Below, piece by piece: positions 14,143-38,324 of a DNA stretch of 38,324 nucleotides. The notes under the pieces were generated by a model. That model saw nothing but the letters and a program-made list of their open reading frames with translations. It was not told the origin of the DNA and did not search any database. Position 1 is the stretch's first letter. Each line of letters begins with the position of its first letter. The position numbers were made by a program, and so were the translations under genes. Source of the stretch: Vicingaceae bacterium. GTDB taxonomy: Bacteria; Bacteroidota; Bacteroidia; Flavobacteriales_E; Vicingaceae. The stretch lies in assembly GCA_029210015.1 (NCBI GenBank), contig JARGOE010000002.1, forward strand, positions 31,360-69,683, in the 5' to 3' direction.

Positions 14143-15099
14143 TTGAAAGTAACAGAACATTTAAAAAAGGCTAAAAAGCCTCTTTTTTCATTAGAAATAC
14201 TCCCCCCTTTAAAAGGGAAAGGAATACAATCTATTTATGATGGTATCGACCCTCTTATAGAGTTTGGCCCATCATTTATTAATGTTACGTACCATCGTGA
14301 AGAATTTGTTTACAAAAAACGTGAAAAAGGATATTTAGAAAAAATAGCCATAAAAAAACGTCCTGGTACAGTTGGTATTTGTGCTGCAATAGTAAACAAA
14401 TATAAAATTGATGCTGTTCCTCACATTATCTGTGGTGGGTTTACTAAAGAAGAAACTGAAAACGCTTTAATTGACCTCAACTTTTTAGGAATTGACAATG
14501 TTTTAGCTTTAAGAGGAGACCCAATAAAAACAGAGCCAGGTTTTGTAGCTGAAGAGTTAGGTCATTCTTATGCGGGTCAATTAGTTAACCAAATTGTTGG
14601 TTTAAATAAAGGAGATTATATGGATGAGGATTTACAAAACGCCACTCCAACTGATTTTTGCATTGGTGTTGCAGGTTATCCTGAAAAACATTTTGAGGCT
14701 CCTAATTTAAAAACTGATATGAAGTTTTTAAAACAAAAAATTGAATTAGGCGCAGAATATATTGTTACTCAACTATTTTACGATAATAATAAGTTTAAAG
14801 ATTTTGTAAATCTTTGTAGAGCTGAGGGGATTACAGTTCCGATAATACCTGGTCTTAAACCAATTTCTACTAAAAAACAAATTCTATCATTACCTAAATT
14901 TTTTCACATCGATTTACCTGATGATTTGGTAGATGCTGTTGAGAAATGTAAAGACAATGATGAGGTAAAACAAGTTGGTATTGAATGGGCGATACAACAA
15001 TCTAAAGATTTAATTGATTTTGGTGTGCCTTGTATCCATTATTACACTATGGGGAAATCAGTAGCTACTAGAGAAGTGGTTAAAGCTGTTTTTGGTTAA
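14143..15099 (+). CDS. metF: Methylenetetrahydrofolate reductase, TTG start
   Basis: KPLFSLEILPPLKGKGIQSIYDGI, FINVTYHREE, NVLALRGDP, YIVTQLFYDNNKF, VPIIPGLKPI. Confidence 0.95.
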   Translation: MKVTEHLKKAKKPLFSLEILPPLKGKGIQSIYDGIDPLIEFGPSFINVTYHREEFVYKKREKGYLEKIAIKKRPGTVGICAAIVNKYKIDAVPHIICGGFTKEETENALIDLNFLGIDNVLALRGDPIKTEPGFVAEELGHSYAGQLVNQIVGLNKGDYMDEDLQNATPTDFCIGVAGYPEKHFEAPNLKTDMKFLKQKIELGAEYIVTQLFYDNNKFKDFVNLCRAEGITVPIIPGLKPISTKKQILSLPKFFHIDLPDDLVDAVEKCKDNDEVKQVGIEWAIQQSKDLIDFGVPCIHYYTMGKSVATREVVKAVFG

Positions 15100-32700: not shown

Positions 32701-32716
32701 TGTTTCACGTGGAACA
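32701..32716. promoter_or_regulatory. parS: parS-like ParB binding site, 3' side of mnmG
   Basis: TGTTTCACGTGGAACA; reverse complement TGTTCCACGTGAAACA exactly fits TGTTNCACGTGAAACA. Confidence 0.85.
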
Positions 32717-32721
32717 AAAAC

Positions 32722-34584
32722 CTATCTACCCATAAAAACCATTAAGACAGAAATGTCTGATGGTGATATCCCGCTTATACGAGAAGCTTGTCCAACTGTT
32801 TTAGGCTTAACATGAGTAAGCTTTTCAACAGCTTCAGCAGAAAGTGAGCTCAATTTAGAATAATCTATATCGTCATAAATTTTAATGTTTTCTAGGCGCA
32901 TAATCTTCTCAGCAACATCTTTTTCGCGCTTGATATACCCATCATATTTCATTAAAATTTCTGCACTTTCAATTTCTTCTTCTGTGTGTTCTTTTATACT
33001 TTCTCCTAATTTTTGATTAACCAAACTCAAGTCATTTATATTAATATTTGGTCTTGTTATAACAGATACTGCTTTAACTTTTTGCTTAATAGGCGAAGAG
33101 TTTTGCTTAGATAAATAGGTGTTTACTTCATCTGGAACTAGGCTAGTTTTTTCAAAGTCTTTTATGATTTTGTTAATGTTTTTTCGCTTCAACTCTACTT
33201 GCCTCATTCTTGTTTCATCCGCTAATCCTAATTCAAAAGCAAGAGGAGTTAGTCTGACATCAGCATTGTCTTGGCGTAATAAAATTCTATATTCAGCCCT
33301 CGATGTAAACATTCTATAAGGTTCTGTAGTCCCCTTGGTAATTAAATCATCTATTAACACACCTATGTAGGCTTGATCTCTTTTTAAGACAAATGGTACC
33401 TTATTATTGATTTTTAAATGAGCATTAACACCTGCCATTAAACCTTGCCCTGCAGCTTCTTCATATCCTGTCGTTCCATTTATTTGCCCAGCAAAATATA
33501 GGCCCTGAACTAATTTTGTTTCCAAAGTATTTTTTAATTGAGTAGGTTGAAAAAAGTCATACTCTATAGCATAACCAGGCCTAAACATTTTAGCATTCTC
33601 AAAGCCTGGAATTAATTGCATTGCTTCATATTGAACTTCTTCAGGTAAAGATGTAGAAAAACCATTTAAATAAATCTCACAAGTAGTCCACCCTTCTGGC
33701 TCAATAAATAATTGATGTCTTTCTCTTTCAGAAAAACGTACAATTTTATCTTCAATAGAAGGACAATACCTTGGTCCTAACCCTTGAATTCTGCCTGCAA
33801 ACATAGGTGATTTTTCAAAGCCAGTTTGTAGAACATCATGAACATTTTGGTTGGTATATGAAATAAAACAACTTCTTTGGTTTTCTAATTTTGGCATGTC
33901 TTTATAAGAAAAACATCCTGGTTTTTCATCTCCTGGTTGCTCTTCCATTTTAGAATAATCTAAACTTCTCCCATCAACTCTAGGTGGTGTACCAGTCTTC
34001 ATTCTGCCGCTTTTAAAACCTAAGTTTATAAGCTTATCTGTAAGGCCAACAGATGGTCTTGCGCCTGCTCTTCCGCCTCCAAATTGCTTCTCTCCTATAT
34101 GTATTAAACCATTTAAAAATGTTCCGTTTGTAAGTATAACAGATTTAGACCTAAACTCAACTCCTATCTGTGTTTTAACACCCAAACACATCCCGTTTTC
34201 AACAATTAAATCAACAACCATATCTTGCCAAAAATCTACTCCTTTAGTATCTTCTAGGGCTTGTCTCCACTCTTTTGAAAAGAGCATTCTGTCGTTCTGT
34301 GTTCTTGGGCTCCACATTGCAGGCCCTTTTGAACGATTTAACATCTTAAATTGAATAGCACTTTTATCACTAATAATTCCTGAATAACCACCTAAAGCAT
34401 CAATCTCTCTAACAATTTGCCCCTTAGCAACACCCCCCATAGCAGGGTTGCAGCTCATTTGAGCAATAGTATCCATATTCATAGTAATCAACAAGGCGTT
34501 AGACCCCATATTGGCAGCAGCAGCCACTGCTTCACAACCAGCATGACCACCACCAACAACTATTACATCGTACTCTTTCTTCAT
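32722..34584 (-). CDS. mnmG: tRNA uridine-5-carboxymethylaminomethyl(34) synthesis enzyme MnmG (GidA)
   Basis: [91 protein letters not shown]. Confidence 0.98.
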
Positions 34585-34592
34585 TTTAAAAA

Positions 34593-34608
34593 TGTTTCAC
34601 GTGGAACA
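34593..34608. promoter_or_regulatory. parS: parS-like ParB binding site, 5' side of mnmG
   Basis: Second identical copy of TGTTTCACGTGGAACA, in the 29-nt gap between ybeY and mnmG. Confidence 0.85.
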
Positions 34609-34613
34609 ATTAA

Positions 34614-35045
34614 TTAATTTTTAAGCAAAGATAAATAAAAATCTTCCTTAGCAGTCATCTCTTCCTGCTGTTCATCTGTCTTATCATTATACCCTACAAG
34701 ATGCAAAACCCCATGAACAATAACACGATGAAGCTCATTGATAAAATCTACATTATAAGTTTTGGCGTTTTCTTTCACACGGTCGATACTAATAAAAATA
34801 TCGGAATTCAAAATGTCTTTTTCACAATAATTAAATGTAATTATATCAGTATAAGTATCATGATCTAAATGTTCTAAATTTATTTTATGGAGAAAATCAT
34901 CAGAACAAAAGATATAAGAAATCTCTCCCAAAACCTTGTTTTCTGAAAGAATAGTTTTGTGTATCCAATCAATTGTCGGTGCAGTATTTTTTAACTCAAA
35001 AGAAGTGTCTTCCGAATAAAAAGAAATGCTAGAAGATAAAGACAT
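34614..35045 (-). CDS. ybeY: Endoribonuclease YbeY (rRNA maturation RNase)
   Basis: DTYTDIITFNY, ELHRVIVHGVLHLVGYNDKTDEQQEEM (HGxLHxxGYDH-like metal motif). Confidence 0.92.
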   Translation of the reverse strand: MSLSSSISFYSEDTSFELKNTAPTIDWIHKTILSENKVLGEISYIFCSDDFLHKINLEHLDHDTYTDIITFNYCEKDILNSDIFISIDRVKENAKTYNVDFINELHRVIVHGVLHLVGYNDKTDEQQEEMTAKEDFYLSLLKN

Positions 35046-35464
35046 TAATTGGCTGATATAGAGAATTTTAACTTGATTTTTCTACCCTCATTTTCAAAAG
35101 AAATATCATCGGCTAAAGTGCGCATTAAGAATATGCCTCGCCCACTTAATTTTTCTAAATTTTCAGGCATGGTAGGGTCAGGCACCTTTGTGTAGTCAAA
35201 ACCAGCACCCTCATCTTCAACAACAAACTCTATTGTGTCTGGGTTGCCAACAATGTCTAAACATACCTTTTTTGATGAGTCTAAATGATTGCCATGTGTA
35301 ATGGCGTTGTTTACAGCCTCAGTAATTGCGATTAAAATGTTTCCATAATCGTCTTCACAAATAGCAAATTGATCACACAAATCATCGACATAATTTTCGA
35401 TTTTTGTTAAACTTTCTAGTTGAGATATTAATTCAAATCTCTGAACGATTCCTTCCTGGGTCAT
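35045..35464 (-). CDS. RsbW/SpoIIAB-like HATPase_c protein (anti-sigma-type serine kinase fold)
   Basis: ILIAITEAVNNAITHGNH (N box), VEDEGAGFDYTKVPDP (G1), SGRGIFLMRTLADDISF (G2). Confidence 0.88.
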   Translation of the reverse strand: MTQEGIVQRFELISQLESLTKIENYVDDLCDQFAICEDDYGNILIAITEAVNNAITHGNHLDSSKKVCLDIVGNPDTIEFVVEDEGAGFDYTKVPDPTMPENLEKLSGRGIFLMRTLADDISFENEGRKIKLKFSISAN

Positions 35465-38324
35465 TTATTGATGTTTTGAAAATATTGTGTTACTTTTTTC
35501 TTATAAAAATTATTCAAATTAGGAGGTGTTGTTTTAATTAAATCCACCTCTTGATCTTTTTCTTTTGTATAGTCAAAATAAAACTCGGGGTTGCTTTTTT
35601 CATTATCTCTTCCTTCTTTAGACTCTCTTCTGTCGTCCCACTCACGTTCGCGCTCAGCTTTTTCAGACTCTAATAACCTTGTTAAAATTTCTTGTTGTCT
35701 GTTAATTGTTTCTTGGGTAATACGTTTATTTACAATATCTGTTTCGTTTTCTTCCATTAATTTCGACATTCCATTTAAACCAGCGCCCCCCCCTTCTTTT
35801 CTTAACTCATTTATAGCCTCTCTAATTTTTGCTTGTTCTGCTGCCATTTTAGCTAAAGATTCGCTCATTCCGCCTTTGCCTTGACCCGTTCCTTGACCCT
35901 CACCCTTCTTTTCTCCAGGTTTTTTCCCTTTACCTGGTTTATTTCCTTCTTCCATCATTTTTTTCATCTGCTCTAATTGCTCACTCAACTTTTGTTGCAT
36001 TTTTTTTATTCCAGCCATGCCTGGTTTTGGTTTCCCATTGCCGCCTGGTTTATTACAACTGCCCTCTCCTGGTTTTTGTTGAGCCTGCTTCTGCATTTGT
36101 TGTAATGCTTCATCAAATAATAAAGCTAAATTATTAATTGATGTCATTACAAACTGTTGGCTTGATGCTGCCATGGCTGTTTGTCTCTCAGCCATAAAAC
36201 CTAAAGTTTTATCCATATAATTATTAATCAAACCTATTTCTTTATTTATTGTAGATTCTAACTGAACAACCCTCTTACTTAATGCAAACAAAGAATCTTC
36301 AATCATTTTAGCATCATCTTTTAATTTTTTCTGTTTTTGAGTAATGGCTACATACTCTGGACTTTTCCTGTTCATTCCTTTATATGTTTCCATTAAACCT
36401 TCTTGTTCAAAAGAAAGATGAATTAAGTTATCTAAGAGTTGTCTTAAAGCATCCATATCTTCCCCTTGGTTTTGAGCGTCTTGTTGCATTGATGCCATTT
36501 GTTGCGACATTTCTTTCATTTTTCCAGCTGCACTTTTTTGAGATTCAGATGATTTTTTGTTTTTATTTTTTTCAAGCTGATCAGAACTGTTTTTCATGTC
36601 CTCAGAAACACTTTCTTGTTGCTCTTTAGTATCCTCCATTCCGTTCGGACGTTCTAGATCTTTATCCATTTTATTTAGCTCATCAAGCTCTTCTTTAACT
36701 TTATCAAACTCTTTATTTAATTCCTCTTGTTTTTTGTTCAGTTCTTCGTTGCTTTCTTTTTTGTCTTTGGTATCCTCAGAAAGCTGCTCTTGTTTGTCCG
36801 CCAAATCATCTAGTTTGTTTTTAACTTCATCCAGCTTTTGTTCAAACTCCATTTGTTTAAACAACTCTAAAGACCTGTCAAGCTCTTTTTCTAAATCTTC
36901 ATTAGACATTTCCATTTTATCTAACTCATTTTCCAGCATATTCTTGTCTAGTTTTTCCATCATCTCTTGTAGTTTCTCCATCATCTCTTTCATCTCATCA
37001 GTCATCAACTCATCAAAGAGTTTTTGTAATTGGTCTTGTTTTTCTAAAACTTCTTGGCTGTACTTTTTGTATTCGTTTTGTTGTTGGTTGTTCTGTTGAT
37101 TTTCATTTCGTATCTCGTTTACTTTCTTCTCCAGCTCTTTTTGTTTTTCCAACAAGTCTTTAAGTTTTTGCTTCTCTTCCCAGCCAATTTCTTTTTTTTC
37201 AGCTAATTTTTTCTTTAGTTCTTCTAAATCTTTTTGTATTTGTTTTGCTTCAGTGATGCTTTCTGAAAAATTCTTTTTAATGTCTTTATTGCTTTTTGAT
37301 GTTTGTGCATTTCGTTCGTCTATGGATTTAGATTTAAAAGTTTTTAAGTTTGTTTTTGCAGACTTTCGACCATTTACACCATCATTGTCCCAAACCTCGA
37401 AATAATAACTTATTTCATCTCCTGGCAAAATGTTTAATTCTTCTAAATTCCAAAAATGGAAAAACTCATCAATAGTTGTTGATGTGTTAAACGGAACCCC
37501 AACTGTTTTTAATTGGTTTCGATTAGGTAATGAATCGATTTTTGTGGTTATTCTGTAGTTAAACTTTAAAGCTGTAAAACCATAGTCATCGCCTATTTCC
37601 CCCCTAAAATATAAACGATTGTTATTGGTTGAGTCTCTTTTTTCGGTTACATCAATTGTTGGGAACTTATCGGGAATTACTTGAAGCGAATACAAGACAG
37701 TATCTCCATTTTTTACATATTGATTAGACGGAACAAAAGCATAACCTAAGTTTTGGGCCGCTTTTTTAGTAAAAGAAACTTGTTGGTTGGCAGGTTTTAA
37801 TTGATACAGGCTATCCCCCAATATAAAGTTTAAATAATCCGCATCTTCTGTTTTGATGTTCCACTTTATTAGAGCTCCCTCAGGCAAAACTAAATCGCCA
37901 GTATTTTGAAGGGTTTCTGTTGGCTTGTTTAAATATTTAGGATAATTAATATTAACAGAAAAGCTAGTTAAAATTGGGTTAGGTATTACTTTAAGCTCAC
38001 GCTCTTGAGAATAAAACCCCGAAGCATAAAGCTTAAAAGTGTTGTTTTTTTGAACATTTTTAAAGGTGTATGAATAGCTTCGCTTGTCTGATTTACTTAA
38101 TGAATATTTGTTTCCATTGCTTTCTATATATATTTTATCTGGTAATTGATTCCCAGAAACCTCTACTTCTAAATTAAAATCTTTGTTTTTTAAAACCACC
38201 AAATTGCTGTTAGCTATTTCCATTTTAAATGGAGCCATTGGTGCAATATAGGTGTTGTGATTTACCAGCCTATCTGTTCCTTCGGTAAAAACTTTTGGGG
38301 CAGTAATAGAAATCCCAACAATTA
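35461..38324 (-). CDS. DUF4175-like coiled-coil protein, N-terminus beyond the window
   Basis: Frame stays open upstream of the listed ATG (38238) to the window edge (...IVGISITAPKVFTEGTDRLVNHNTYIAPMAPFKM). Long Q/K/E/M-rich coiled coil and EYVAITQKQKKLKDDAKMIEDSLFALSKRV segment. Confidence 0.75.
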   Translation of the reverse strand, partial: IVGISITAPKVFTEGTDRLVNHNTYIAPMAPFKMEIANSNLVVLKNKDFNLEVEVSGNQLPDKIYIESNGNKYSLSKSDKRSYSYTFKNVQKNNTFKLYASGFYSQERELKVIPNPILTSFSVNINYPKYLNKPTETLQNTGDLVLPEGALIKWNIKTEDADYLNFILGDSLYQLKPANQQVSFTKKAAQNLGYAFVPSNQYVKNGDTVLYSLQVIPDKFPTIDVTEKRDSTNNNRLYFRGEIGDDYGFTALKFNYRITTKIDSLPNRNQLKTVGVPFNTSTTIDEFFHFWNLEELNILPGDEISYYFEVWDNDGVNGRKSAKTNLKTFKSKSIDERNAQTSKSNKDIKKNFSESITEAKQIQKDLEELKKKLAEKKEIGWEEKQKLKDLLEKQKELEKKVNEIRNENQQNNQQQNEYKKYSQEVLEKQDQLQKLFDELMTDEMKEMMEKLQEMMEKLDKNMLENELDKMEMSNEDLEKELDRSLELFKQMEFEQKLDEVKNKLDDLADKQEQLSEDTKDKKESNEELNKKQEELNKEFDKVKEELDELNKMDKDLERPNGMEDTKEQQESVSEDMKNSSDQLEKNKNKKSSESQKSAAGKMKEMSQQMASMQQDAQNQGEDMDALRQLLDNLIHLSFEQEGLMETYKGMNRKSPEYVAITQKQKKLKDDAKMIEDSLFALSKRVVQLESTINKEIGLINNYMDKTLGFMAERQTAMAASSQQFVMTSINNLALLFDEALQQMQKQAQQKPGEGSCNKPGGNGKPKPGMAGIKKMQQKLSEQLEQMKKMMEEGNKPGKGKKPGEKKGEGQGTGQGKGGMSESLAKMAAEQAKIREAINELRKEGGGAGLNGMSKLMEENETDIVNKRITQETINRQQEILTRLLESEKAEREREWDDRRESKEGRDNEKSNPEFYFDYTKEKDQEVDLIKTTPPNLNNFYKKKVTQYFQNINK

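Follow-up and report, generated by a model that had tools for sequence, protein, structure and literature searches.

Two identical 16-mers bracketing mnmG in a Vicingaceae bacterium are very probably chromosomal parS sites

A 16-letter DNA tag, parS, gives bacteria the hold by which they pull apart the freshly replicated copies of their chromosomes. In a Vicingaceae bacterium, two words resembling this tag stand one at each end of the tRNA-modification gene mnmG, which raises the question of whether they are genuine chromosomal parS sites and, if so, why they frame this gene. We addressed it in a stretch of 38,324 nucleotides (the window), the features of which are collected in Table 1. Both sites read TGTTTCACGTGGAACA on the forward strand; they are identical, share the same orientation, and lie 1.9 kb apart, exactly where the initial annotation had placed them, with site 2 falling inside the 29-bp gap between ybeY and mnmG. 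Their reverse complement, TGTTCCACGTGAAACA, had been said to fit the ParB consensus, and it does agree with TGTTNCACGTGAAACA at all fixed positions in both copies. It departs from the perfect palindrome TGTTTCACGTGAAACA by a single mismatch, at variable column 5, which the consensus leaves free. Site 2 also creates a chance reading frame on the opposite strand, an example of the spurious small ORFs that parS can generate.

Table 1. Coordinates of the features discussed in the text
Feature	Sequence	Position	Strand	Remarks
parS-like site 1	window	32701..32716	-	TGTTCCACGTGAAACA when read along mnmG; 5 bp past the mnmG stop codon
mnmG (gidA)	window	32722..34584	-	enclosed gene; 620 aa; TIGR00136, 846 bits
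parS-like site 2	window	34593..34608	-	TGTTCCACGTGAAACA when read along mnmG; 8 bp before the ATG of mnmG
Chance reading frame	window	34592-34624	+	starts ATGTTTCACGTGGAACAA; soon meets a stop
ybeY	window	34614..35045	-	directly upstream of mnmG, same strand
DUF4175 coiled-coil protein	window	35461-38238		925 aa; upstream of ybeY
Dense DnaA-box cluster	L113	14765-15270
Dense DnaA-box cluster	L105	14491-14880
Dense DnaA-box cluster	L067	15683-16126
Dense DnaA-box clusters	L073/L108/L110	about 14470-14820

Such a repeat had been judged unlikely to arise by chance, and the counts bear this out. Allowing up to three mismatches, the window yields five match records, where shuffled sequences give an expectation of 0.27; the records comprise the two sites, each counted on both strands, and one further site with three mismatches. 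Copies of the 16-mer are not scattered: across the assembly that holds the window (2.43 Mb in 121 contigs, 82% complete), the two mnmG-flanking sites are the sole matches with zero to two mismatches, a few-copy, clustered arrangement such as chromosomal parS shows. Matches with three mismatches are no commoner there than those of a reversed control pattern. On the shuffle expectation and the assembly-wide copy number, we rejected chance occurrence of the two sites.

The association with mnmG extends well beyond this genome, as a check for conservation in relatives reveals. Sites are present at mnmG in all 14 genus genomes, both being exact in 11 of them; a twelfth (G004) has an upstream site with two mismatches. 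Among 149 sampled class relatives, TGTTNCACGTGAAACA is matched exactly one or more times in 99, and the reversed control has almost none. The matches listed for Bacteroidia include 110 distinct exact sites: 99 no more than 1 kb from mnmG, nine farther off or on another contig, and two in a genome in which no mnmG was found. Across 80 named mnmG loci, the density of parS-like words (up to two mismatches) is 140 times higher at up to 300 bp from mnmG than in the rest of the same loci. Two absences count against a parS reading, given that nearly every genome of the class sample has a ParB: about one-third of the 149 sampled genomes lack an exact site, and no site with two or fewer mismatches lies within 300 bp of mnmG in 15 of the 80 named loci. 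No parS-like word stands beside mnmG in Hymenobacter, Dyadobacter, and Fibrella, though DnaA-box clusters remain there (L113, L057, L073, L086, L108, L110, and L112 combine these two states); in these loci, parS may have moved or diverged.

How the sites vary also bears on what they are. Of 125 sites from the 80 named loci, 119 have an intact CACGTG core, and mismatches are almost confined to columns 1, 5, 12, and 16, as expected of a protein-binding site. Inverted repeats adjoining a start and a stop codon could alternatively work as RNA hairpins: the upstream one would be an attenuator of mnmG and the downstream one its terminator. However, columns 5 and 12 form a C-A pair on the mnmG strand, which breaks the stem, and this C5/A12 combination is common (33 of the 125 sites). 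The would-be loop is the CACGTG core, the most conserved part of the word, where a loop should vary freely. Both regions fold no better than shuffled sequences, and no terminator was found at either. We therefore rejected the terminator and attenuator, which call for a stable hairpin (followed, for a terminator, by a U run), and regard a hairpin role as extremely improbable.

If the sites are parS, the genome should encode the proteins that act on them. The initial annotation had found no parA or parB in the window and had named the absence of parB from the genome as an outcome that would speak against its proposal. A single ParB is in fact encoded on another contig, C72 (176 bits; the gene is cut by the contig end), where parA overlaps the start of parB in a single parAB operon, so that both a cognate ParB and a ParA partner are at hand. 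The DNA-binding core of this ParB aligns with solved ParB and Noc proteins, and the protein carries the GERR motif. In its stretch VGKKRSTVAN...SMGHAR, an R aligns with Caulobacter R173 and a G with Caulobacter G201, an equivalence that is our own reading of the alignment numbering. R173 and G201 are absolutely conserved in ParB, with Q and R in their place in Noc (PMC7383237). Judged from the sequence, the recognition residues are of the parS type rather than the Noc-site type. A Noc-type site (NBS) was likewise rejected, the protein having R and G rather than Q173 and R201 and the site word being that of parS.

That parB is unlinked to the sites weighs against the parS reading. In near-complete relatives, parAB is 0.67 Mb (G125), 0.73 Mb (G079), and 2.2 Mb (G101) from mnmG. 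As a side observation, dnaA and parB often share a contig, about 3 to 65 kb apart, with mnmG and parS on a different one (G004:C15, G023:C10, G032:C14, G046:C73, G068:C300, and G106:C8), as if an ancestral origin cluster had split, with dnaA and parAB moving together. The sites might instead serve some transcription factor, not ParB, as operators, since an E-box-like CACGTG palindrome beside a gene start would suit a dimeric regulator. Yet the word is canonical parS in a genome that has parB, its occurrences go with mnmG and the origin and do not trace out a regulon, and there are two copies genome-wide, which makes this role very improbable.

We are highly confident that both 16-mers are chromosomal parS, where the ParB of C72 would load, and form the centromere of an ordinary ParABS system. 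Observed features underlie this reading: the sequence of the sites, their copy number, conservation, and position, the presence of parA and parB, the recognition residues, and the proximity to the origin in relatives. In the model that we favor, ParB dimers would recognize each site with a helix-turn-helix domain, turn into closed clamps that depend on CTP, and slide across mnmG and the neighboring DNA; ParA would then move the ParB-parS complex, delivering the newly copied origin region to each daughter cell. A CTP-clamp and sliding mechanism has been described for ParB (PMC7333895). ParB binding, spreading, and partition in this organism are what we infer from these features.

Why mnmG? The initial annotation had suggested an origin-proximal zone, and relatives support this part of the proposal. 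With GC skew sampled in 18 to 20 segments per genome, the minus-to-plus switch falls at or adjoining the mnmG segment in four near-complete chromosomes (G125, G149, G101, and G079). In G125, the cumulative skew minimum lies about 7 kb from mnmG, and the distance to dnaA is about 309 kb; for Hymenobacter BT18 (G149), the corresponding values are within about 3 kb and about 1.0 Mb. The switch of G101 is at or next to mnmG, again with dnaA about 1.0 Mb away, but the signal is weak and not clearly visible in the third-position skew; that of G079 occurs between 1.28 and 1.34 Mb, with mnmG at 1.348 Mb and dnaA about 427 kb away. Closer to our organism, two contigs of the same family show a sign change of third-position skew within about 25 kb of mnmG; the change is gradual in the same-genus contig of G004 and the signal noisy in G019.

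Clusters of DnaA boxes (at least four boxes, each with at most one mismatch, within 400 bp) point the same way. They occur in 38 of the 80 named loci, versus zero to one locus for six scrambled boxes, mostly 2.5 to 6 kb downstream of mnmG; that of Hymenobacter BT18 falls on the skew minimum. Two further clusters, at L299 and L237, were discarded: one lies inside an ORF, and the other is a tandem repeat, one word occurring five times at intervals of mostly 125 bp. The dense clusters of Cytophagales and Weeksellaceae loci, usually in the same downstream interval, are likely oriC, and if so would provide a simple origin-finding rule for these orders. Two published reports also place oriC at mnmG by Ori-Finder, in Mariniflexile (PMC11278836) and Algorimicrobium (PMC12843772); a figure legend in the former swaps the ori and ter labels.

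The contig of the window itself, which ends 3.7 kb past site 2, does not show this signature, and this counts against the parS reading: its third-position skew is negative almost throughout, with no switch, and a DnaA-box cluster is absent from the window, from the contig, and from the vicinity of mnmG in the sampled same-family segments. No exact TTATCCACA cluster was found anywhere in the assembly. Origin proximity of the sites in this organism is for this reason argued by analogy with relatives. On that analogy, the sites would lie in the gaps flanking mnmG because in Bacteroidota this gene lies at the replication origin or close to it. The observation of the initial annotation is confirmed, and its interpretation as origin-proximal parS is supported, the origin part through relatives.

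The bracket itself is not the only layout. A bracket occurs in 29 of the 80 named loci (Chryseobacterium near-copies make up many of these); 33 others have upstream sites only, at least two of them in 22 cases, three have downstream sites only, and 15 have none. On a 61-row mnmG tree, the bracket state requires 4 changes versus 12 in shuffles: it is present in the group of the window, in Acidiluteibacter, and in a clade with Weeksellaceae and Flavobacteriaceae. In Crocinitomicaceae and Cytophagales, upstream clusters prevail. Because it is clustered on the tree in this way, the bracket is one lineage-stable layout within a wider parS-mnmG association. This stability could also reflect a local role, in which ParB controls mnmG expression or the bracket confines the ParB domain over mnmG, linking tRNA modification to replication or segregation; the distances from site to gene end, kept at about 0 to 60 bp in most genus and family genomes, would fit it. 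However, a bracket is not required, since 33 of the 61 tree loci, of other Bacteroidota, have upstream sites only (many with two to five), and confinement of parS to the short gaps next to a gene linked to the origin is enough to account for where the sites lie, with no regulation involved. We consider an added local role unlikely.

The usual second role of parS is the loading of Smc-ScpAB. Neither Smc nor ScpA exceeded the cutoff in any of 10 genus genomes, including one that is 100% complete, and a DUF4194 (MksE-type) protein was not found in the genus genomes searched; all three were detected in G046, from another family. Smc-ScpAB loading therefore probably does not apply here. More widely, canonical Smc, ScpA, and the MksE-type protein were not detected in G001 to G009 and in most class members sampled. 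An OMM12 Hi-C study likewise found no condensin in its two Bacteroidetes species (PMC10197239). The DUF4175 coiled-coil protein of the window has a weak SMC match (23 bits) limited to the middle stretch of the profile, and G003, G004, G005, and G006 also encode a similar long protein near mnmG. One could speculate that, in a lineage with no recognizable Smc-ScpAB or MksE-type condensin, the parS pair about 1.9 kb apart is the whole centromere and that ParB clamps over mnmG replace the work of condensin loading and may tie mnmG expression to segregation, an idea that we hold to be quite unlikely.

Compared with known systems, the locus is very probably a well-conserved centromere of a known kind and not a new kind of system. 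Like the chromosomal ParABS systems of the Bacillus and Caulobacter type, it has the 16-bp consensus, a single parAB with matching ParB residues, and few clustered sites, origin-proximal in relatives; unlike them, its sites bracket mnmG with parAB elsewhere, on another contig, and no Smc or ScpA was found in the 10 genus genomes. Noc/NBS is a paralogous ParB-family binding system, also with a 16-bp palindrome, from which the present one differs by the residues and site word given above. In Escherichia coli, oriC adjoins gidA (PMC4446571), and, as in Mariniflexile and Algorimicrobium, mnmG marks the origin region with dnaA elsewhere. The consulted excerpts on the latter two (PMC11278836 and PMC12843772) do not describe parS at mnmG, whereas here it is present at both gene ends. 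The OMM12 Bacteroidetes (PMC10197239) also have ParABS, a parS cluster marking an ori that is not always at dnaA, and no condensin; they differ in being gut Bacteroidales, and the part of the study consulted gives no gene-level account of the parS sites. Our literature search found no description of parS at mnmG in Bacteroidota, nor of the bracket form in a lineage without detectable Smc-ScpAB.

What is noteworthy is that parS is tied to mnmG rather than to parAB or dnaA, the bracket form, and the lack of detectable Smc-ScpAB. The presence of parS at mnmG, not dnaA, offers a simple origin and centromere marker for many Bacteroidota genomes and metagenome bins, and dnaA-based origin calls mislead in many members of this phylum. 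As a probable compact natural two-site centromere in a group with no detectable Smc-ScpAB, the locus makes the role of ParB-parS testable apart from condensin loading.
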